Source of the DNA: Candidatus Poribacteria bacterium
GTDB lineage: Bacteria > Poribacteria > WGA-4E > WGA-3G
NCBI GenBank assembly: GCA_026706025.1
Contig: JAPOZO010000052.1
Span: 112,337 to 176,336 of the forward strand
Direction: 5' to 3'
Length of the DNA: 64,000 nt
Under the pieces are notes generated by a model. The model had not been told where the DNA came from. It saw only the letters and a list, made by a program, of their open reading frames with translations, and did no database searches. Within the stretch, counting starts at the first letter, position 1. Every line of letters starts with the position of its first letter. Shown in pieces: positions 33,894 to 43,267 of this stretch. Made by a program: the position numbers and the translations under genes.

Positions 33894-34679
33894 ATGGCAA
33901 TCAAAAAATCCCAACTCTACGCTTCCCTCTGGCAAAGCTGCAACAAACTGCGAGGCGGTATGGATGCCTCCCAATACAAAGACTATATTCTGACGCTGCT
34001 GTTCATGAAATATGTCTCCGATAAGGCAGAAAGAAATCCCCGCGAGGTAGTAAAAGTACCAGAAGGTGGAAGTTTCGCCGATATGGTGGAATTGAAGGGC
34101 GACAAGGAGATCGGTGATAAGATCAACAAGATTATCGCTAAATTCGCTGAGGCAAACAAACGGATAAGCGACTTTAATCAAGCTGATTTCAATGACGACA
34201 CTAAACTCGGCAAAGGCAAAGAGATGGTGGATCGCCTTACCGGACTGGTGGAAATCTTCAACGACCTCGATCTCAGTTCCAACCGCGCTGAAGGTGATGA
34301 CCTGTTAGGCGACGCTTATGAATATCTGATGCGGCATTTCGCTACAGAGTCTGGCAAAAGCAAAGGGCAGTTCTATACGCCTGCCGAAGTTTCGCGCATT
34401 ATGGCGAAGGTTATCGGCATTGGTCCTGATACCCAAAGGATAAATACGATATACGACCCGACTTGCGGTTCCGGTTCGCTACTGCTGAAGGCAGCCGACG
34501 AAGCACCGCGCGGACTTAGTATCTATGGACAGGAGAAGGACAATGCAACCTACGGACTCGCGCGGATGAATATGATACTTCACGGTTATGCAGGCGCAGA
34601 GATAAGTCCCGGTAACACACTTTCTGCACCTGATTGTAAGATTCAGCCACGAGTCTCAAACTTTTTGACTTTGCTGTAG
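33894..34679 (+). CDS. hsdM: Type I DNA methyltransferase HsdM, N-terminal fragment (frameshifted)
   Basis: 261 residues: the helical N-terminal domain (SQLYASLWQSCNKLRGGMDA, KYVSDKAE) and the first part of the N6-adenine methyltransferase fold, with the AdoMet motif YDPTCGSGSLLLKA. The frame then hits a stop at 34677. The catalytic NPPF motif is present 3 codons further but in the next frame (FAVANPPFSDKEW). Adding one T to the T5 run at 34662-34666 would restore reading straight through as NFFDFAVANPPF. So the genomic sequence lacks one base relative to an intact gene; a sequencing error, a true mutation or programmed slippage are all possible. Confidence 0.88.
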   Translation: MAIKKSQLYASLWQSCNKLRGGMDASQYKDYILTLLFMKYVSDKAERNPREVVKVPEGGSFADMVELKGDKEIGDKINKIIAKFAEANKRISDFNQADFNDDTKLGKGKEMVDRLTGLVEIFNDLDLSSNRAEGDDLLGDAYEYLMRHFATESGKSKGQFYTPAEVSRIMAKVIGIGPDTQRINTIYDPTCGSGSLLLKAADEAPRGLSIYGQEKDNATYGLARMNMILHGYAGAEISPGNTLSAPDCKIQPRVSNFLTLL

Positions 34680-34708
34680 CAAATCCACCTTTTTCTGACA
34701 AAGAGTGG

Positions 34709-36346
34709 ATGACCGGGTTCAATCCTGCTAAAGACGAATATGCACGTTTTGAATACGGCATCCCGCCCGCCAAAAATGGCGATTATGCGTTCCTACTACA
34801 CTTCATCGCATCCCTCAAAAGCACAGGTAAAGGTGCAATCATCCTACCACACGGCGTGCTATTTCGCGGCAACAAAGAGGCAGATATACGCAGAAACCTC
34901 ATCGAACGTGGATACATCAAAGGCATTATTGGTTTACCCGCCAATCTGTTTTACGGTACGGGCATCCCCGCTTGTATCATCGTGATAGACAAGGAAAGTG
35001 CTGCACATCGTACTGGCATCTTTATGATAGACGCAAGCAAAGGTTACCTCAAAGATGGCAACAAAAACCGACTCCGCGCACAGGACATCCATAAAATCGT
35101 GTCCGTATTTAATAAACAGACCGAAATAGACGGATATTCCCGAATAGTGCCGACATCTGAAATTGTTAACCCTGCCAACGACTATAACCTCAATATCCCG
35201 CGCTATATTGACAACAGCGAACCCGAAGACCTACACGACCTTGACGCGCACCTCAACGGTGGTATCCCAAACACCGATATTGACGCACTTGACGACTATT
35301 GGGAAGTGTTTCCTACATTACGCCAAGAGTTGTTCAAAGCAAACGGCAGACCCAGTTATAGCGACCCACAAGTGGAAACACAACAGGTAAAAACGACCAT
35401 CCTCTCACATAACGAGTTCACTGACTACCAGCAGCAGGTAATCGCTGTCTTTGAGAGGTGGCGTAACACACACGAACCGCTGTTGGGGGGTATTGATGCG
35501 AATACCAAGCCAAGAGATGTTATTGATGCACTCTCGGAAGACCTGCTGATGCAATTCGACAATTTACCACTCCTTGACCCTTACGATGTTTACCAGAAAT
35601 TGATGGACTATTGGGATGAAGTGATGCAGGACGATGTGTATCTCATCACCACAGATGGATGGGTGAAGGCATCACAACCGCGCGACCTTATCCAAGACAA
35701 AGACCTCAAGGAAACCCCCGACCTTACTCTTAAGAAAAAGAAATATAAGACGGATCTGATTCCACCGGCACTGATTGTCGCACGCTATTTTACCGACAAA
35801 CAAGCAGAAATTGACAGACACCAAAGCGCGCTGGAGACTGCTGAGCAAAAACTTGAGGCATACATTGAAGAACATACCGGCGACGAGGGGTTGCTCACGG
35901 ATGCAGTCAACGACAGTGGCAACGTTACAAAGACCACTGTAAACGCAAGACGCAAAGCACTCACACCCAATCTGATGACGCACAACGATGCACAGGACGA
36001 CGAAAGCGAAGCACTTGAACACTGTCTATCGCTCATTAATGCGAAGGCAAAAGCGGACAAAAAGGTGAAAGACGCACAACTCGCATTGGATGAACAGGTG
36101 TTAGCACGCTACAAAACGCTCACCGAAACGGAAATTAAGCAGCTCGTGATTGACGATAAATGGTTCACCACAATCCAAGCCGAAATTACAAGTGAAGTAC
36201 AGCGGTTGACACAGAATCTCACAGAACGCGTGAAGGAATTAGAGGAACGCTACGCACAACCGTTGCCCGCCCTGTCGCAGGAAGTGGAAACATTTAGCGC
36301 GAAGGTAGCAGCACATTTGCAGAAGATGGGGGCGGATTGGGAATGA
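34709..36346 (+). CDS. hsdM: Type I DNA methyltransferase HsdM, C-terminal fragment (frameshifted)
   Basis: 545 residues in the frame that continues HsdM after the broken T run; the frame is actually open from about 34650, so the NPPF motif belongs to this part. It holds the rest of the methyltransferase fold (KGAIILPHGVLFRGNKEADI, GLPANLFYGTGIPACIIVID) and a long C-terminal region with coiled-coil-like helices (RHQSALETAEQKLEAYIEE), as in long HsdM proteins. The first usable ATG (34709) leaves out NPPF, so a separate product would be inactive as a methylase. It overlaps the hsdS start by four bases (ATGA). Confidence 0.85.
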   Translation: MTGFNPAKDEYARFEYGIPPAKNGDYAFLLHFIASLKSTGKGAIILPHGVLFRGNKEADIRRNLIERGYIKGIIGLPANLFYGTGIPACIIVIDKESAAHRTGIFMIDASKGYLKDGNKNRLRAQDIHKIVSVFNKQTEIDGYSRIVPTSEIVNPANDYNLNIPRYIDNSEPEDLHDLDAHLNGGIPNTDIDALDDYWEVFPTLRQELFKANGRPSYSDPQVETQQVKTTILSHNEFTDYQQQVIAVFERWRNTHEPLLGGIDANTKPRDVIDALSEDLLMQFDNLPLLDPYDVYQKLMDYWDEVMQDDVYLITTDGWVKASQPRDLIQDKDLKETPDLTLKKKKYKTDLIPPALIVARYFTDKQAEIDRHQSALETAEQKLEAYIEEHTGDEGLLTDAVNDSGNVTKTTVNARRKALTPNLMTHNDAQDDESEALEHCLSLINAKAKADKKVKDAQLALDEQVLARYKTLTETEIKQLVIDDKWFTTIQAEITSEVQRLTQNLTERVKELEERYAQPLPALSQEVETFSAKVAAHLQKMGADWE

Positions 36347-37611
36347 GTAAAACCACTATTCACCATAGGTTTTCAACAGGCTACAAACAGACAAATCTCG
36401 GACCTCTTCCTAATACTTGGAAAGCAGTACTTCTTGGAGATCTCTTTGTATTCAAAAACGGTCTAAATAAGGCCAAGGGATTTTTCGGTAGTGGAACACC
36501 TATCGTCAACTATATGGATGTTTTTGAACACCCAGGCCTTAGACCAGGTGATCTGTTGGGACGGGTAAACTTAACACCGGAGGAAATCAGGAATTTCAAA
36601 GTCCAAAAGGGCGACGTGTTCTTTACCCGCACATCGGAAACGGTTGAAGATATTGGGGTGGCATCCGTTATGCTCTATGAACCTCACGATACCGTATTTA
36701 GTGGCTTTGTTCTTCGTGCTAGGTCCCGTGATGGGCGACTCGACGATCACTACAAGCAGTACTGTTTTGCAAATAGAGTTGTCAGATCCCAAATCATATC
36801 AAATGCAACATACACAACGCGTGCCCTGACCAACGGTCGCACACTGTCTACTGTATGGATTGCCGTCCCACCAACTCCAGAACAACGCGCCATCGCCGAG
36901 GCGTTGTCAGATGTGGACGGGTTAATCAACGCATTGGACGCACTCATCGCCAAAAAGCGTGCAATCAAACAAGCCACCATGCAGCAACTGCTCACCGGTA
37001 GGACACGCCTGCCCGGCTTCAGCGGTGCATGGGAAACAAAGCAAATCGGCGATGTGGCAAGTCTATGTAGCGAGAAGAATAATTTAGGCGCGGATATCCC
37101 GGTTTTGACCTGTTCTAAGCACCTGGGATTCGTTGATTCGCTTAGTTACTTCAAGAACCAAGTCTTTAGCAAAGACCTGAGTAGCTACAAAATCATCAGA
37201 CGCGGCCAGATAGGTTATCCAATAAATCATGTTGAAGAAGGATCAATCGGACTTCAGGACCTCTATGATGTAGCTCTTGTTAGTCCAATTTATGTCGTGT
37301 GCTCACCGAAGAAGGACATCAATAGTTTCTTCCTCCACAGATTACTGAAGCTTGAATCCTACCGCCAAGAGTTTGCCAATGCTACTACGTCTTCCATTAA
37401 TCGCCGGGGAAGTTTAAGATGGCCTGTATTCTCAAAAATTCATGTTACTCTCCCACCCATCGACGAGCAAGTTGCTATCGCTGCAGTCCTCAATGATGTG
37501 GAGATTGAGATTGCAGCTCTTGAGAAACGCCGAGACAAAACTCACGCTATCAAACAAAGCATGATGCAGCAGCTTCTCACGGGGCGCGTGCGGTTGTTGA
37601 AATCGGAATAA
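36343..37611 (+). CDS. hsdS: Type I restriction-modification specificity subunit HsdS
   Basis: 422 residues from ATG 36343, which overlaps the hsdM stop (ATGA). The two target-recognition domains lie at about residues 15-180 and 230-370, separated by the conserved spacer PPTPEQRAIAEALSDVDGLI, ALIAKKRAIKQATMQQLLTG and closed by the related repeat DEQVAIAAVLNDVEIEIAAL, THAIKQSMMQQLLTG. These spacers are the coiled coils that set the gap in the split recognition site. The subunit directs HsdM and HsdR to DNA. The two domains are not alike, so a non-palindromic split site is expected. Confidence 0.93.
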   Translation: MSKTTIHHRFSTGYKQTNLGPLPNTWKAVLLGDLFVFKNGLNKAKGFFGSGTPIVNYMDVFEHPGLRPGDLLGRVNLTPEEIRNFKVQKGDVFFTRTSETVEDIGVASVMLYEPHDTVFSGFVLRARSRDGRLDDHYKQYCFANRVVRSQIISNATYTTRALTNGRTLSTVWIAVPPTPEQRAIAEALSDVDGLINALDALIAKKRAIKQATMQQLLTGRTRLPGFSGAWETKQIGDVASLCSEKNNLGADIPVLTCSKHLGFVDSLSYFKNQVFSKDLSSYKIIRRGQIGYPINHVEEGSIGLQDLYDVALVSPIYVVCSPKKDINSFFLHRLLKLESYRQEFANATTSSINRRGSLRWPVFSKIHVTLPPIDEQVAIAAVLNDVEIEIAALEKRRDKTHAIKQSMMQQLLTGRVRLLKSE

Positions 37612-37761
37612 GGTAGAAAACAAACACATGTCAGGACGAAATAGCGTTATTTAAATTTGACTTTTTCGTTGATTTTCTTTGGAAAATAGGGTAAATTCCG
37701 TACCAGCGTTTAGACAATTTTTATAGAGCCCACTCTGAATAATAGTAGCGTGCCAGTTTAT

Positions 37762-38409
37762 ATGAAATTAAACCACTATACCGATAACGTTTTTATCAAT
37801 TGCCCATTTGATTCGGCTTACAAGCCCTTGTTTGATGCGATAGTGTTTGCAGTACATGATTGCGGTTTTATGGCACGTTGTGCGCTTGAAGAAGAAGACA
37901 CAAGCCAAGTGCGTATTGATAAGATTTATACCATTATCGCGGACTGCCGTTATGGAATTCATGATATATCGCGAACAGAATTAGACGAGATTTCAGGTTT
38001 ACCTCGATTTAATATGCCTCTGGAATTGGGAATTTTCCTCGGCGCAAAGAGATTTGGTGTAAAAGAGCAAAAAAGAAAAAACTGCCTCGTACTGGATAGC
38101 GAACCGTATCGGTACCAACAATTTATCTCGGATATTGCTGGCCAAGACATTCAGTTTCATAACAACAGTCCTGAAGCAGTTATAAAAGCCGTCCGGAACT
38201 GGCTCCGCACTACCTCAAGGCGTCAAACACTTCCAAGTGGAAATGTTATCTGGGAACGTTACCAAAATTTTGTGAAAGATTTGCCGCAAATGGCGCAAGA
38301 TTTTCAGTTGGAAGTAAATGACCTGATTTTTAATGATTATGTTTGGGTACTCGGGAAATGGCTGGTCGCAGAGACAAGTTCTTTGTCCGATCAGCATTCA
38401 AGGAGATAA
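37762..38409 (+). CDS. Nucleoside deoxyribosyltransferase/TIR-like protein of unknown function
   Basis: 215 residues from ATG 37762; a GTG at 37750 would add four. It opens with a Rossmann-type strand (TDNVFINCPFDSAYKPLFDA) and has CRYGIHDISRTELDEI and FNMPLELGIFLGAKRFG. The Glu88 in PLELG sits where nucleoside 2-deoxyribosyltransferases and TIR-type proteins have their catalytic Glu. I recognise the conserved pattern but not a named function; a nucleotide- or NAD-processing role is inference. It lies 150 bases after hsdS and 65 before the TIR gene, inside the restriction-modification operon and on the same strand. Confidence 0.7.
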   Translation: MKLNHYTDNVFINCPFDSAYKPLFDAIVFAVHDCGFMARCALEEEDTSQVRIDKIYTIIADCRYGIHDISRTELDEISGLPRFNMPLELGIFLGAKRFGVKEQKRKNCLVLDSEPYRYQQFISDIAGQDIQFHNNSPEAVIKAVRNWLRTTSRRQTLPSGNVIWERYQNFVKDLPQMAQDFQLEVNDLIFNDYVWVLGKWLVAETSSLSDQHSRR

Positions 38410-38474
38410 TCAGCAGTACAAGATAAAAAATTTTATAGGTGTCGCGAGCCATTTAAAATCGCGGGAGAATACCC

Positions 38475-39284
38475 ATGGCAAGACAAAGAACTATCAAATT
38501 CCCACCCAAACGTGGGAAACTCACAATCTGCCAAATTGAACAGGCAGTAGATAAGGTCATTCAAAAGAGGCGCGCGCAAGAGACAATAACTTCAACACCG
38601 AAAGAGGATAGAAGTGAAAAATACGACGTGTTTATTAGTTTTTGCGCGGATGATTCCGATGCCATCAACCTCCTCAGTACGCTGCTCAAAAATGAAAATA
38701 GCAATATTGTGTTTAGCGATCTCTCTCCGAGAGCACCGTTCAATAGCGAAAAATCGGATCACATCAAACCTGACATCCGAGAACGTATTCGCCAAAGTTC
38801 GGTTACTGTCGTGTATGTATCGGATAAAACTGCAAATAGCGAATGGGTAGACTGGGAAATACGAGAAAGCCTCGCACAGGGAAAAGGTGTTCTTGCCATG
38901 CACAAAGGTGACACTCGACCTAAACACCTCCCGAAGGCAATCGTTGAGAACAATATTAAGGTGTTACCTTGGAAGCAGCAGCTTATAAATGATACTATAC
39001 AGGGACAAGCAGAGACAGGACTGCCAGAGTCCCTCCCTTCAGATATCAAATCGAAAGTCATAAACTTACTCACCGCTGGTGCGATGTCAAGATCCGAATT
39101 GTCCAAGAAATTAGGACAGAAGAAGCCTACCGGTCATCTCCACAACGTTATTCGAGGCCTTCTGGATGATCAGATGATTGAATACACACTACCAGATAAA
39201 CCCAGAAGTCGAAGGCAGCAGTACCAATTGACTGACAAAGGAAGGACCGAACTCTCAAAGTTGAAATCAAGAGATGCAGTATAA
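38475..39284 (+). CDS. ThsB-like TIR domain protein with C-terminal winged helix
   Basis: 269 residues. Residues 48-165 are a TIR-like (MTH538/ThsB type) domain: KYDVFISFCADDSDAINLL, VTVVYVSDKTANSEWVDWEI with the catalytic-type Glu128, and GKGVLAMHKGD. Residues 192-265 are a winged helix: LLTAGAMSRSELSKKLGQ, HLHNVIRGLLDDQMIEY and RRQQYQLTDKGRTEL, as in MarR/ArsR-type or RecG-like DNA-binding parts. TIR enzymes of phage defence make or break NAD-derived signals; a DNA-binding winged helix on the same chain is unusual. GGGAG precedes the start. The stop codon lies in the first unit of a 12-bp tandem repeat. Confidence 0.82.
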   Translation: MARQRTIKFPPKRGKLTICQIEQAVDKVIQKRRAQETITSTPKEDRSEKYDVFISFCADDSDAINLLSTLLKNENSNIVFSDLSPRAPFNSEKSDHIKPDIRERIRQSSVTVVYVSDKTANSEWVDWEIRESLAQGKGVLAMHKGDTRPKHLPKAIVENNIKVLPWKQQLINDTIQGQAETGLPESLPSDIKSKVINLLTAGAMSRSELSKKLGQKKPTGHLHNVIRGLLDDQMIEYTLPDKPRSRRQQYQLTDKGRTELSKLKSRDAV

Positions 39285-39326
39285 GATGCAGTATAAGATG
39301 CAGTATAAGATGCAGTATAAGATGCA
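39273..39326 (+). repeat. 12-bp tandem repeat, 4.5 copies
   Basis: GATGCAGTATAA is repeated four times without a mismatch (39273-39320) and then GATGCA. The first copy carries the stop codon of the TIR gene. Because 12 is a multiple of three, every unit ends with an in-frame TAA, giving four stops in a row. It lies in the 133-base gap before hsdR. Copy number may vary between strains. Confidence 0.9.
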
Positions 39327-39417
39327 ACCCGAATCGCGACTATTACATTTATAATCGGGAATCGGAGTGTTTTGCTTGGGAGTTTCTTCCCTTCTATAGA
39401 GAATAGGATACACCAAC

Positions 39418-42400
39418 ATGCACATAATTCGTGAAACAGAAAAAGACACACAAAAACGCGTCATAGAATTCTTCCAAGATGCCTTGAACTATACCTACCT
39501 CGGTAGCTGGGCAGATAGCGTTGACGAAAACAGCAATATCATCCCTGAAGACCTTGCTGACTGGCTGCGGAAACAGAACCACGCCCCCAATATTATCACC
39601 AAAGCAGTGTATCAACTACAACAAGCAGCGAAAATTGGTGGAAGTAGAACGCTTTATGACGCGAACTTTGAAGTCTATGAACTCTTACGCTACGGCGTGA
39701 AGGTGCAACCAGATGTCAGTGAACAACATAAAACAGTCTGGCTAATAGATTGGAAAAATCCAGAAAACAACGATTTCGGTATCGCAGAGGAGGTCGCGCT
39801 CAGAGGAAAACACAACAAACGTCCCGATCTCGTGCTATATATCAACGGTATCGCTATCGGTGTGTTAGAGTTGAAAAGTGCCATAACCTCTGTCTCTGAA
39901 GGTATCCGTCAAAACCTTGTCAATCAAACAGAGACGTTCATCGAGTGGTTTTTTAGCACAGTGCAGCTGGTGATGGCGGGGAATGAAACTGAAGGATTAC
40001 GTTACGGCGTTATTAAGACCCCTGAAAAATACTGGTTACGATGGAAAGTAAAGCCTGCACAGCCAGAGACTGCGACCAATCCGTTACTTAGAGAACTCGG
40101 GCAATTTTGCAACAAAGAACGGATGCTTGAAATCTTACACGACTTCATCGTATTTGATGCTGGAAGAAAGAAAATCTGCCGTCATAATCAATACTTCGGT
40201 GTGAAGGCAGCCCAGGAACGCGTCAAGAGTAGAGAGGGCGGGATTATCTGGCACACACAAGGCAGCGGGAAAAGTTTGGTGATGGTCTGGTTAGCAAAAT
40301 GGATTCTGGCAAATAATCCTAACGCACGGGTACTCATCATCACTGACCGCATAGAATTGGATGAACAAATCGAAGGTGTTTTTCAGGGTGTCAAAGAGAA
40401 TATTAAGCGAACAAAGAACGGTGAGGATCTGAAGCAAGTACTTAGCGATGCCACAAACCGGTTAGCCTGTTCTCTCATTCACAAGTTTGGCAAGTCGGGA
40501 GAGATAGAAGATACAGATGTTGACCTCTATGTAATTGATCTAAAGCAGAATCTCGCTGATGGTTTACGTGTAAAGGACGAATTTTTTGTATTTGTAGACG
40601 AATGCCACCGCACACAGTCGGGCATACTCCACAAGGCAATGAAGGAACTTCTTCCCAACGCCATGCTCATTGGCTTCACAGGCACACCGCTGCTAAAGAG
40701 CGACAAACAACGGAGCATTGAGATATTCGGTAAATTTATTGACACCTATAAATATGATGAGGCAGTCCATGATGAAGTCGTGCTTGACCTGCAGTATGAG
40801 GCACGCGATATTGACCAGAATCTCACTTCACAAGACCGTATAGACCAATTTTTTGATAGCAAAACCCGCGGGTTAAACGATGTGGCGAAAGCACAGCTCA
40901 AGGAACGTTGGGGAACGATGCTAAATGTCGAAAGTTCAATGAATCGCTTACGGAAAATCGTCGCAGACATTGTTTTGGATATGGGCACGCGCGATCGGTT
41001 GAAAAGTGGGAAAGGGAACGCAATGCTTGTGGCGAACAGTATCCTCTCTGCTTGTAGGCTCTACAATCTATTTCAAGATACACCTTTGAGAGGGAAATGT
41101 GCCGTGGTGACATCCTATAGACCCAATATAGAATCCATCAAACTCGAAGAAACAGGCGAAGGACTTACCGATAAGCAGCTGGAATACAATACATATAGAG
41201 ATATGCTTTCAGCATATTTTGGAAAGCCTTTTAAGTTGACGAACGCCAAGGTTGATCAGTTTGAACAAGAGGTAAAGAAACGTTTCATTGAAGAACCTGC
41301 ACAGATGAAACTCCTCATCGTCGTGGACAAACTACTCACAGGTTTTGATGCACCACCTGCCACCTATCTTTACATAGACAAAAGTATGCAGGATCATGGG
41401 TTGTTTCAAGCAATCTGTCGCGTCAATCGCATTCATACTGATGACAAGGAATTCGGCTACATCGTGGATTATAAAGACCTATTTGGATCCCTGAGGCAGG
41501 CAATGACAGACTATACGGGTGAGGCGTTTGAAAACTACGATACCGAAGATGTGGAAGGATTATTGAAGGATAGGCTTGAAAAAGGCAGAGAACGATTAGA
41601 AGACGCACGCGAAGCGATTAAAGCGTTATGCGAACCGGTTGATCCGCCGAAACAGATTGCGGATTATATCCGTTATTTCTGTAGTGCGGAAAGTGGAAAC
41701 AACGAACAGATAAAAGCCAATGAGCAGAAACGCATAAAACTCTATAAGTTGACTGCAGCCTTAGTCCGTGCATACGCTAACCTTGCAAATGAGATGGAGG
41801 CGGCAGGATATAGTGACGCGGAAGCAGAGAAAATCAAAAAAGAAGTGGGCGATTACGAATATGTACGTCAACAAGTAAAACTAACAAGTGGCGACTACAT
41901 TGACCTGAAGATGTTCGAGCCTGATATGCGCCATCTGTTGGATACTTATATCCAAGCCGAGGAGAGTGAGACGCTCTCAACATTTGACAATATGCCACTT
42001 GTCCAACTGATCGTGAATAAGGGTGCCGATGCGGCGATTGAGAAATTGCCTGAAGGCATCCGCACAAGTGAAGAGGCGATCGCGGCAACAATAGAAAACA
42101 ACATTCGGCGTGTCATTGTTGACAAATCAGAGATCAATCCCAAATATTATGAAGAGATGTCACGACTGCTTGATGAACTCATTCGTCAGCGGAGACAGGA
42201 TAAAATTAATTATCGGCAATACCTATCAGAGGCTACGAGGTTGAGCAAGCAGATTACCGATCCTACTGCAAACTCGGACTATCCACAGGGCATTGATACA
42301 AAACCACGGCAGGCTTTTTTTGATAACTTACCAGACGATATGCCGGTTGATCATAAAACCGAAATGGCGAAAGCAATAGATGAGGCTATTATTGATGAAA

Positions 42401-42543
42401 GAAGTGATGAATGGAGAGGAAATAGATTCAAAGAACTTGAAATACGTAACGCCATTGAAATAGTTATCTTGGATGATTTTGATGACGATACTATTGACAT
42501 TGACAAAATTTTCAATATCGCAAAAAATCAAGATGAATACTAA
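39418..42543 (+). CDS. hsdR: Type I restriction endonuclease subunit HsdR
   Basis: 1041 residues, full length. Nuclease motif near the N-terminus: RPDLVLYINGIAIGVLELK (PD...ExK). ATPase/translocase motifs: IWHTQGSGKSLVMVWLAK (Walker A), FVFVDECHRTQSG (DEAD-like box), MLIGFTGTPLL (motif III) and QAICRVNRIH (motif VI). It pumps DNA and cuts it at a distance from the recognition site once assembled with HsdM and HsdS. It is separated from hsdS by the two TIR/deoxyribosyltransferase-like genes and a tandem repeat. It overlaps the next gene by 11 bases. Confidence 0.95.
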   Translation: MHIIRETEKDTQKRVIEFFQDALNYTYLGSWADSVDENSNIIPEDLADWLRKQNHAPNIITKAVYQLQQAAKIGGSRTLYDANFEVYELLRYGVKVQPDVSEQHKTVWLIDWKNPENNDFGIAEEVALRGKHNKRPDLVLYINGIAIGVLELKSAITSVSEGIRQNLVNQTETFIEWFFSTVQLVMAGNETEGLRYGVIKTPEKYWLRWKVKPAQPETATNPLLRELGQFCNKERMLEILHDFIVFDAGRKKICRHNQYFGVKAAQERVKSREGGIIWHTQGSGKSLVMVWLAKWILANNPNARVLIITDRIELDEQIEGVFQGVKENIKRTKNGEDLKQVLSDATNRLACSLIHKFGKSGEIEDTDVDLYVIDLKQNLADGLRVKDEFFVFVDECHRTQSGILHKAMKELLPNAMLIGFTGTPLLKSDKQRSIEIFGKFIDTYKYDEAVHDEVVLDLQYEARDIDQNLTSQDRIDQFFDSKTRGLNDVAKAQLKERWGTMLNVESSMNRLRKIVADIVLDMGTRDRLKSGKGNAMLVANSILSACRLYNLFQDTPLRGKCAVVTSYRPNIESIKLEETGEGLTDKQLEYNTYRDMLSAYFGKPFKLTNAKVDQFEQEVKKRFIEEPAQMKLLIVVDKLLTGFDAPPATYLYIDKSMQDHGLFQAICRVNRIHTDDKEFGYIVDYKDLFGSLRQAMTDYTGEAFENYDTEDVEGLLKDRLEKGRERLEDAREAIKALCEPVDPPKQIADYIRYFCSAESGNNEQIKANEQKRIKLYKLTAALVRAYANLANEMEAAGYSDAEAEKIKKEVGDYEYVRQQVKLTSGDYIDLKMFEPDMRHLLDTYIQAEESETLSTFDNMPLVQLIVNKGADAAIEKLPEGIRTSEEAIAATIENNIRRVIVDKSEINPKYYEEMSRLLDELIRQRRQDKINYRQYLSEATRLSKQITDPTANSDYPQGIDTKPRQAFFDNLPDDMPVDHKTEMAKAIDEAIIDERSDEWRGNRFKELEIRNAIEIVILDDFDDDTIDIDKIFNIAKNQDEY

Positions 42544-43267
42544 AACCGAAGATTATCATATTGAAGTCCGTGGTCTCTCCATAGAGGTTGTCCGTAAAGA
42601 CATTAAGCATTTTTATATTGGTGTTCATCCACCCCATGGACAGGTGCGTGTGTCTGCACCATTGCGACTTGACGATGATGCCGTGCGGATGGCTATTATT
42701 TCACGTCTGGGATGGATTAGACGGAAACAAGCATCGTTTGCAAAGCAGGAACGTCAATCACAACGGGAGTATGTGTCCGGTGAAAGCCATTATTTTGCGG
42801 GGAAACGTTACAGACTGAAAGTAACAGAGCAGGACAGTCCACCAATGGTTCGCCTGCTTAACAATACGAGGATCGGATTAGTCGTACGTCCAGGGACAGA
42901 CCGGGACAAACGCGAGTCAGTACTTTATGAATGGTATCGTGAACATCTTCGCGCACAATTACCACTACTCATTGCCAAATGGGAACAGAAGATGGGTTTG
43001 TCTGTTAACGAGGTGCGCATTAAGAAAATGAAAACACTCTGGGGGTCTTGCAACATCGGAGCCAAACGTATATGGCTTAATCTGGAACTGGCGAAGAAAC
43101 CGAAATCGTGTCTGGTGTATGTATTGGTGCATGAGATGGTGCATTTACTGGAACGTCATCATAACGATCGGTTCCGTGAGTTGATGGACAAGTTCCTACC
43201 GCAATGGCGAACATATAGAGACATCCTCAACCAAGCCCCCTTGGCACACGAAGATTGGCGGTACTGA
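42533..43267 (+). CDS. YgjP/SprT-like zinc metallopeptidase (DUF45)
   Basis: 244 residues from ATG 42533, which overlaps the hsdR end; an earlier in-frame start at 42473 would extend into hsdR and is less likely. The zinc motif is VLVHEMVHLLERHHNDRF (HExxH with a downstream His), preceded by KMKTLWGSCNIGAKRIWLN, the W-G-S-C signature of the YgjP family. Genes of this family often follow hsdR in type I systems. A role in processing or trimming of the restriction complex is only a suggestion. It closes the restriction-modification operon. Confidence 0.87.
   Translation: MNTKTEDYHIEVRGLSIEVVRKDIKHFYIGVHPPHGQVRVSAPLRLDDDAVRMAIISRLGWIRRKQASFAKQERQSQREYVSGESHYFAGKRYRLKVTEQDSPPMVRLLNNTRIGLVVRPGTDRDKRESVLYEWYREHLRAQLPLLIAKWEQKMGLSVNEVRIKKMKTLWGSCNIGAKRIWLNLELAKKPKSCLVYVLVHEMVHLLERHHNDRFRELMDKFLPQWRTYRDILNQAPLAHEDWRY

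Follow-up and report, generated by a model that had tools for sequence, protein, structure and literature searches.

A CAP12-like TIR protein and its tag-bearing partner with exchangeable C-terminal parts, found between hsdS and hsdR in a Poribacteria genome

Poribacteria are sponge symbionts, and most of what is known about the phylum comes from metagenomes. The window analyzed here is a stretch of 64,000 nucleotides (G000:C52:112337-176336) from a 6.27-Mb Poribacteria genome, and it carries a type I restriction operon in which two additional genes, G1 and a partner gene (gene 2), lie between hsdS and hsdR. All of the genes are on the forward strand, in the order hsdM (split), hsdS, G1, partner, hsdR, and YgjP metallopeptidase. 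The features are as follows, in window coordinates.

33894-36346, forward strand: hsdM, split by a frameshift into ORFs 33894-34679 and 34709-36346
36337-37611, forward strand: hsdS (PF01420)
37669-37697, forward strand: putative cassette promoter TTGATT-N17-TAAATT, weak
37762-38409, forward strand: G1, 215 aa from the ATG common to homologues, predicted CAP12/Pycsar-type TIR-like protein
38475-39284, forward strand: partner gene, 269 aa, tag followed by a ThsB-type TIR and a winged helix
38475-38594, forward strand: N-terminal tag of the partner (residues 1-40), MARxRTxKxPPKRGKxTxxQIxxAVxKV, which recurs in partner proteins with other C-terminal domains
38631-38906, forward strand: ThsB-type TIR of the partner (residues 53-144; PF08937, E 1.1e-22), with putative catalytic Glu128 in WVDWEI
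39014-39022, forward strand: recombination joint where tag-TIR DNA meets the 3' part of a DUF4062-HATPase-winged-helix gene, located by DNA comparison
39054-39233, forward strand: winged helix of the partner (Fic-like_C, residues 194-253; PF21247, E 2.3e-11)
39269-39326, forward strand: tandem repeat ATGCAGTATAAG after the winged helix, also present in the hsdS-hsdR slots of G055 and G060
39418-42543, forward strand: hsdR (TIGR00348)
42473-43267, forward strand: YgjP-like metallopeptidase gene, last of the operon (PF01863, E 5e-63)

An earlier note on this DNA had described two genes on one strand between hsdS and hsdR, with Glu88 of G1 in PLELG and Glu128 of the partner in WVDWEI; both ORFs and both residue numbers are confirmed, and its description of the partner as a TIR-winged-helix fusion is borne out by the two Pfam matches. 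The N-terminal tag and the hsdM frameshift were absent from it. Of the short gaps and single strand that it had reported, the strand is correct, and the gaps are 150 bp (hsdS-G1), 65 bp (G1-partner), and 133 bp (partner-hsdR), with no overlaps; an alternative GTG start for G1 is present at 37750. The one strong promoter that it had proposed is not supported, as a promoter scan of the locus shows no enrichment (4 sites vs 4.5 in shuffles) and the TTGATT-N17-TAAATT site agrees with the consensus at 8/12 positions and falls below the scan threshold. The site does lie where other G1 cassettes have a conserved TTGA...TATGGYATAMTT element, and alignment of upstream regions reveals that the cassettes have a common promoter-like element. 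The hsdM frameshift falls just upstream of the NPPF catalytic motif when compared with the intact 817-aa hsdM of locus L049 (genome G082), and a single hsdM ORF, mostly of about 830 aa, is kept in nearly all relatives. Either the mutation is genuine, and the type I system in the window may then be inactive, or the assembly contains an error.

G1 has no match in Pfam, reaching the cutoff of neither PF10137 (CAP12/Pycsar TIR) nor PF05014 (nucleoside deoxyribosyltransferase, NDT), nothing meaningful in NCBIfam, and no informative match in PHROGs; PADLOC returns a weak CBASS TIR effector match. It is not a chance ORF, because it has 47 relatives in genome contigs and dN/dS values of 0.08 to 0.21, reflecting purifying selection. 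Four motifs are strongly conserved (VFINCPFD, DCRYGIHDIS, RFNMPLELG, and SDIAGQDI), the putative catalytic residue Glu88 within RFNMPLELG is invariant across 39 sequences, and residues 137-213 constitute a C-terminal three-helix region. The similarity to known proteins is remote: a G1 profile finds CD-NTase-associated protein 12 at the top of the PDB sequences, although weakly (E 0.45), and single-template hhalign alignment to CAP12 gives a probability of 15%. Comparison by hhalign with 24 CAP12/Pycsar TIRs (PF10137 relatives) of Poribacteria gives P 0.0018 over 91 columns, in a register that places Glu88 on the Glu of the family and SDIAGQDI on PSDIxGV, whereas the comparison with TIR_2 fails (P 0.24). 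An earlier AlphaFold model of G1 from 25 sequences had a pLDDT of 68 and no significant PDB matches; with viral relatives added, the AF2 model from 39 sequences has a pLDDT of 85 and a pTM of 0.85. Its first PDB match is SfSTING (Cap12 TIR-STING, 7un8; E 3.6e-4, probability 1.00), with SPARTA TIR-APAZ next and NDT folds behind (E about 5e-3), and its first viral match in BFVD is annotated as a CAP12/Pycsar TIR. Fold prediction had been suggested as a check on the earlier note's deoxyribosyltransferase/TIR-like description of G1, and the TIR half of that description stands. As judged by profile comparison and predicted structure, G1 is a CAP12-like TIR protein with an added helical C terminus.

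G1 is like the CAP12/Pycsar TIRs (PF10137; TIR-STING) in its predicted fold, in its RxNxxxExGxF motif with the catalytic Glu, in its SDIxGxxI motif, and in the pairing of some copies with a CD-NTase; it is unlike them in having no STING or other ligand-binding domain, in its extra C-terminal helical region, in lying below Pfam detection, and in its regular tag partner. TIR-STING members of the CAP12 family are NADases activated by oligomerization (PMC9402430, PMC13142454), and by analogy with that family G1 is probably an NADase also, making the NAD chemistry proposed earlier likely.

The TIR of the partner matches the 8fz9 TIR in the PDB (E 1.8e-9) and is also matched as ThsB_TIR in PADLOC. 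DNA comparisons show that the partner gene has two sources. Positions 38475-39013 are 92% identical to the tag-TIR DNA of L049, and positions 39023-39332 are 91% identical to the slot DNA of G055 and 88% identical to that of G060, corresponding to the 3' end of a DUF4062 gene and the repeats that follow it. This DUF4062-HATPase-winged-helix gene is one of the most frequent occupants of the hsdS-hsdR interval in Poribacteria, and the winged helix in the window has 79% amino acid and 91% nucleotide identity to the C termini of the DUF4062 proteins of about 498 aa that are encoded just upstream of hsdR. Because the joint is clean and the DNA on either side of it is so closely matched, the TIR-winged-helix protein is an in-frame chimera. 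The winged helix is thus a recombined leftover of another slot gene, and the role of DNA sensor that the earlier note had assigned to it is not a conserved design; since the fusion, too few substitutions have accumulated in the winged helix for selection on it to be judged.

The chimera raises the question as to whether the window locus is mostly a relic, with a tag-TIR joined by chance to a leftover winged helix beside a dead hsdM. We consider this possible but doubtful. The clean joint and the hsdM frameshift are consistent with it, as are leftover winged helices of the DUF4062 gene in four other hsdS-hsdR slots and the deletion within G1 in the sister copy of G082. However, G1 and the 269-aa fusion are both intact ORFs, the reading frame has been kept through the fusion, the tag-TIR segment has a dN/dS of 0.28 between the window and L049, and the interruption of hsdM could be an artifact of assembly.

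To describe the pairing more broadly, profiles of G1 and of the tag were run over 85 Poribacteria genomes and their coordinates were joined. The tag yields 82 matches, in 47/85 genomes, and 44 of the 45 full-length G1 genes have a same-strand tag protein downstream, at a distance (in profile coordinates) that is mostly 29-54 bp; the window pair is 93 bp apart, and one other pair 200 bp. The first sign of the tag was that most G1 loci match the window right after G1 in the tag, and not in the TIR. The ORFs following G1 have the same tag and then at least six different C-terminal parts, and the tag proteins take these forms.

Tag alone with no extension, about 60 aa, beside an intact G1
Tag followed by DUF2188 (Pfam E 7.5e-14), matching PADLOC candidate PDC-S16
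Tag followed by a GRDAxTGRF tail
Tag followed by a GIY-YIG/URI-like part (weak match)
Tag followed by an apparently intact CD-NTase (PF21654, E 6.6e-10; PADLOC Cyclase, E 3.6e-130), for example in L046, G079, G053, and G063
Tag followed by a part with no significant Pfam match, in proteins of about 420-610 aa with the motif RLRLGIPGxELQNPDxLQAFVEAGLLPPD (L012:10653-12434, L005:10656-11885, L253-L255)
Tag followed by a TIR, or by a TIR and a winged helix (window)

About 20 of the G1 matches are fragments, and 22/82 tags have no G1 within 2 kb. The G1/tag module is thus often lost, and the abundance of G1 fragments across the phylum suggests that loss is frequent. The genome that contains the window also has, on other contigs, a fragment of G1 and, separately, a match to the tag (G000:C9:19891-20154 and G000:C64:18968-19054). 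Separately, several CAP12/Pycsar TIR genes form tandem clusters in other Poribacteria (L144, L148, and L159, in G057, G070, and G063).

CD-NTases are a hallmark of phage-defense signaling. None is present in the window copy, and in other G1 copies a tag-CD-NTase gene directly follows G1 (L046:8385-9638, L249, L250, L251, L252, and L256, with G1 reduced to a remnant in L252 and L256). These copies lie among ordinary genes, away from any hsd operon, so G1 and its partner seem to be enough as a unit. From sequence, G1 with a tag-CD-NTase is a candidate minimal cyclase and TIR pair. The likeness to CBASS lies in this combination of a cyclase with a candidate TIR effector; the differences are that the cyclase carries the tag, that the effector has no known sensor, and that no other Cap (CBASS) gene was recognized in the neighborhoods read. 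Because they comprise just two genes among ordinary neighbors, a cyclase and a TIR enzyme, these copies provide the best hint of a defense role. Most of the G1 cassettes looked at are outside obvious defense islands, which we count against that reading, and the tags without G1 nearby together with the many degraded copies also fit a selfish or decaying element. We nonetheless regard the module as probably defensive, and we propose with moderate confidence that the pair is an autonomous two-gene TIR effector/partner module, in which the exchangeable part of the partner would set when G1 fires.

Relatives of G1 are also found in Alphaproteobacteria (including on plasmids), Bacteroidota, a cyanobacterium, and Verrucomicrobia, and on nine IMG/VR viral contigs (L180-L188), where they are probably prophage or phage cargo; three further viral scans added almost nothing. 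Outside Poribacteria the gene order is reversed, with a small basic, Lys-rich protein encoded before G1. At 16/17 loci this protein has a net charge of +6 to +30 and its gene ends -1 to +45 bp from the G1 start, and at the 17th (L037) a small ORF overlaps the G1 start by 14 bp. These small partners belong to several sequence families, of which the L029 partner is closest to the tag; at E 0.011 the similarity is suggestive, and we do not claim them as tag homologues. What can safely be said is that, in several phyla, G1 is accompanied by a small basic partner.

The main rival to an effector module with exchangeable triggers is a plain toxin-antitoxin system, in which the TIR protein G1 would act as toxin and its small basic tag-bearing partner as antitoxin, maintained through selfish stability and with C-terminal domains that are mostly decoration. 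G1 pairs do have the corresponding layout of two adjacent genes, one of them encoding a small partner, and the tight linkage in several phyla (with start and stop codons overlapping in some), the stand-alone 60-aa tags beside intact G1 genes, and the presence of G1 on plasmids and viral contigs are all as expected of such a system. We consider it unlikely, however, since an antitoxin would not require the tag to be fused again and again to a CD-NTase, a TIR, or another domain, 22 tags stand without a nearby G1, and the order of the two genes differs between Poribacteria and other phyla.

ThsA is absent from the locus, as the earlier note had stated, and SIR2_2 is not matched in the whole genome, in searches whose positive controls worked; a STALD search for ThsA, which was run without a positive control, also returned none. 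It is improbable that the pair is a variant of Thoeris, with cyclic ADP-ribose signaling by the ThsB-type TIR and G1 as the effector in place of ThsA. Such a variant would accommodate the ThsB_TIR matches in both Pfam and PADLOC, the lack of a ThsA-type SIR2_2 protein, and the likely NADase activity of G1, but G1 lacks SLOG and any other known ligand-binding domain, and nearly all other G1 copies pair with tag proteins that lack a TIR. The window partner resembles Thoeris in its ThsB-type TIR and departs from it in having no ThsA and in that several other parts can take the place of this TIR after the tag. We do not claim Thoeris membership, as ThsA was not found, although a Thoeris-like division of labor is possible.

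In Poribacteria, the hsdS-hsdR interval serves as a general cargo slot, in which G1 is a rare guest. Searches with hsdR and hsdM gave 20 such intervals in relatives (L115-L134): three are empty, and the remainder hold mixtures of DUF4062-HATPase-winged-helix, DUF1828, AAA ATPase (AAA_15/21), AbiU2-type HEPN, ThsB_TIR with a putative membrane protein, DUF4238, and other genes. One of the intervals, in G082, has G1. Several of the slot genes recur among related Poribacteria, and in two of them a ThsB_TIR gene is paired with an adjoining putative membrane-protein gene (L123:1353-2272 and L131:4781-5709). The same interval has been proposed as a cargo slot in other bacteria (PMC12255303), and DUF4062 is itself a TIR-like NADase (Swarozyc, PMC13174449), which brings to three the families of TIR-type enzymes that visit the slot. 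G1 and the DUF4062 genes are alike in encoding known or probable TIR-like NADases, and a DUF4062 gene donated the winged helix, but they belong to different TIR families, and Swarozyc is a single-gene system.

The location in this slot had prompted the suggestion that the pair is a back-up system that senses failure of the restriction complex or its DNA products, in the manner of a PrrC-like guardian that would fire on restriction inhibition or DNA ends. The position between hsdS and hsdR and the winged helix are in keeping with this, and there are precedents in PrrC (PMC12707154) and in DarTG2 embedded at the same site (PMC12255303). With the embedded PrrC and DarTG2 with RptR (PMC12255303) the window shares both the insertion site and an operon ending in a metallopeptidase gene. 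Unlike those systems, the G1 pair has no sign of functional coupling to restriction and the module is mostly found elsewhere. With flanks of up to 10 kb, the only G1 loci that match these hsd genes are the window and L049, whose G1 is internally deleted (decayed); these are two copies among >60 relatives, and the other G1 genes are beside ordinary genes where looked at. The neighborhood check that the earlier note had recommended, covering the 45 full-length Poribacteria G1 genes and homologues elsewhere, thus goes largely against its model, since a link to restriction-modification genes is rare. As the slot also holds unrelated cargo, the winged helix was gained by recombination, hsdM is broken, and the CD-NTase copies are away from any hsd operon, a guardian role is very improbable and we rejected it as the main model; the restriction linkage of the G1 pair is incidental. 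A nucleoside deoxyribosyltransferase acting on nucleotide pools, the other half of the original description of G1, is scarcely credible, since NDT folds are structural neighbors but rank behind the CAP12 TIR in both PDB and BFVD, and the G1 profile fits PF10137 and not the true NDTs of PF05014 (P 0.37, 9 columns).

Returning to the two-gene effector/partner module, the likeliest mechanism is that the short basic tag docks the partner onto G1, and that the exchangeable C-terminal part (CD-NTase, DUF2188, GIY-YIG-like, or others, and the ThsB-type TIR in the window) decides the timing of G1. Upon infection or another insult, the exchangeable part would release or nucleate G1, which would then oligomerize and cleave NAD+, with the fall in NAD+ leading to growth arrest or death. 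For the ThsB-type TIR of the window partner, either production of a signal or co-assembly with G1 is conceivable. This copy has landed in the hsdS-hsdR slot, where recombination joined its TIR to the winged helix of a resident DUF4062 gene. More tentatively, these pairs may form a family of two-gene immune modules not described before, where a 40-residue tag connects a CAP12-type TIR with no sensor of its own to sensors or signal makers that can be exchanged for one another, with the window as a new combination forming by recombination inside a restriction operon. Neither the tag nor G1 was found described in a literature search that was incomplete, with subscription journals and bioRxiv mostly outside its scope. 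The parts are known, and the combination of one sensor-less TIR executioner, one short tag, and many exchangeable partners appears to be new.

For Poribacteria, the hsdS-hsdR interval emerges as a slot where new fusions form, which is a caution against inferring function from embedding alone. If the tag docks G1, the module would be a natural plug and socket connecting one NAD-destroying enzyme to many triggers; it would link CBASS cyclases, Thoeris-type TIRs, and CAP12-type TIRs via one short domain, and would offer a simple setting in which to study the assembly of new immune systems by bacteria. If the family reading is true, new immune systems would arise by exchanging what comes after the tag, and the G1/tag module points to an unrecognized modular form of bacterial self-defense.
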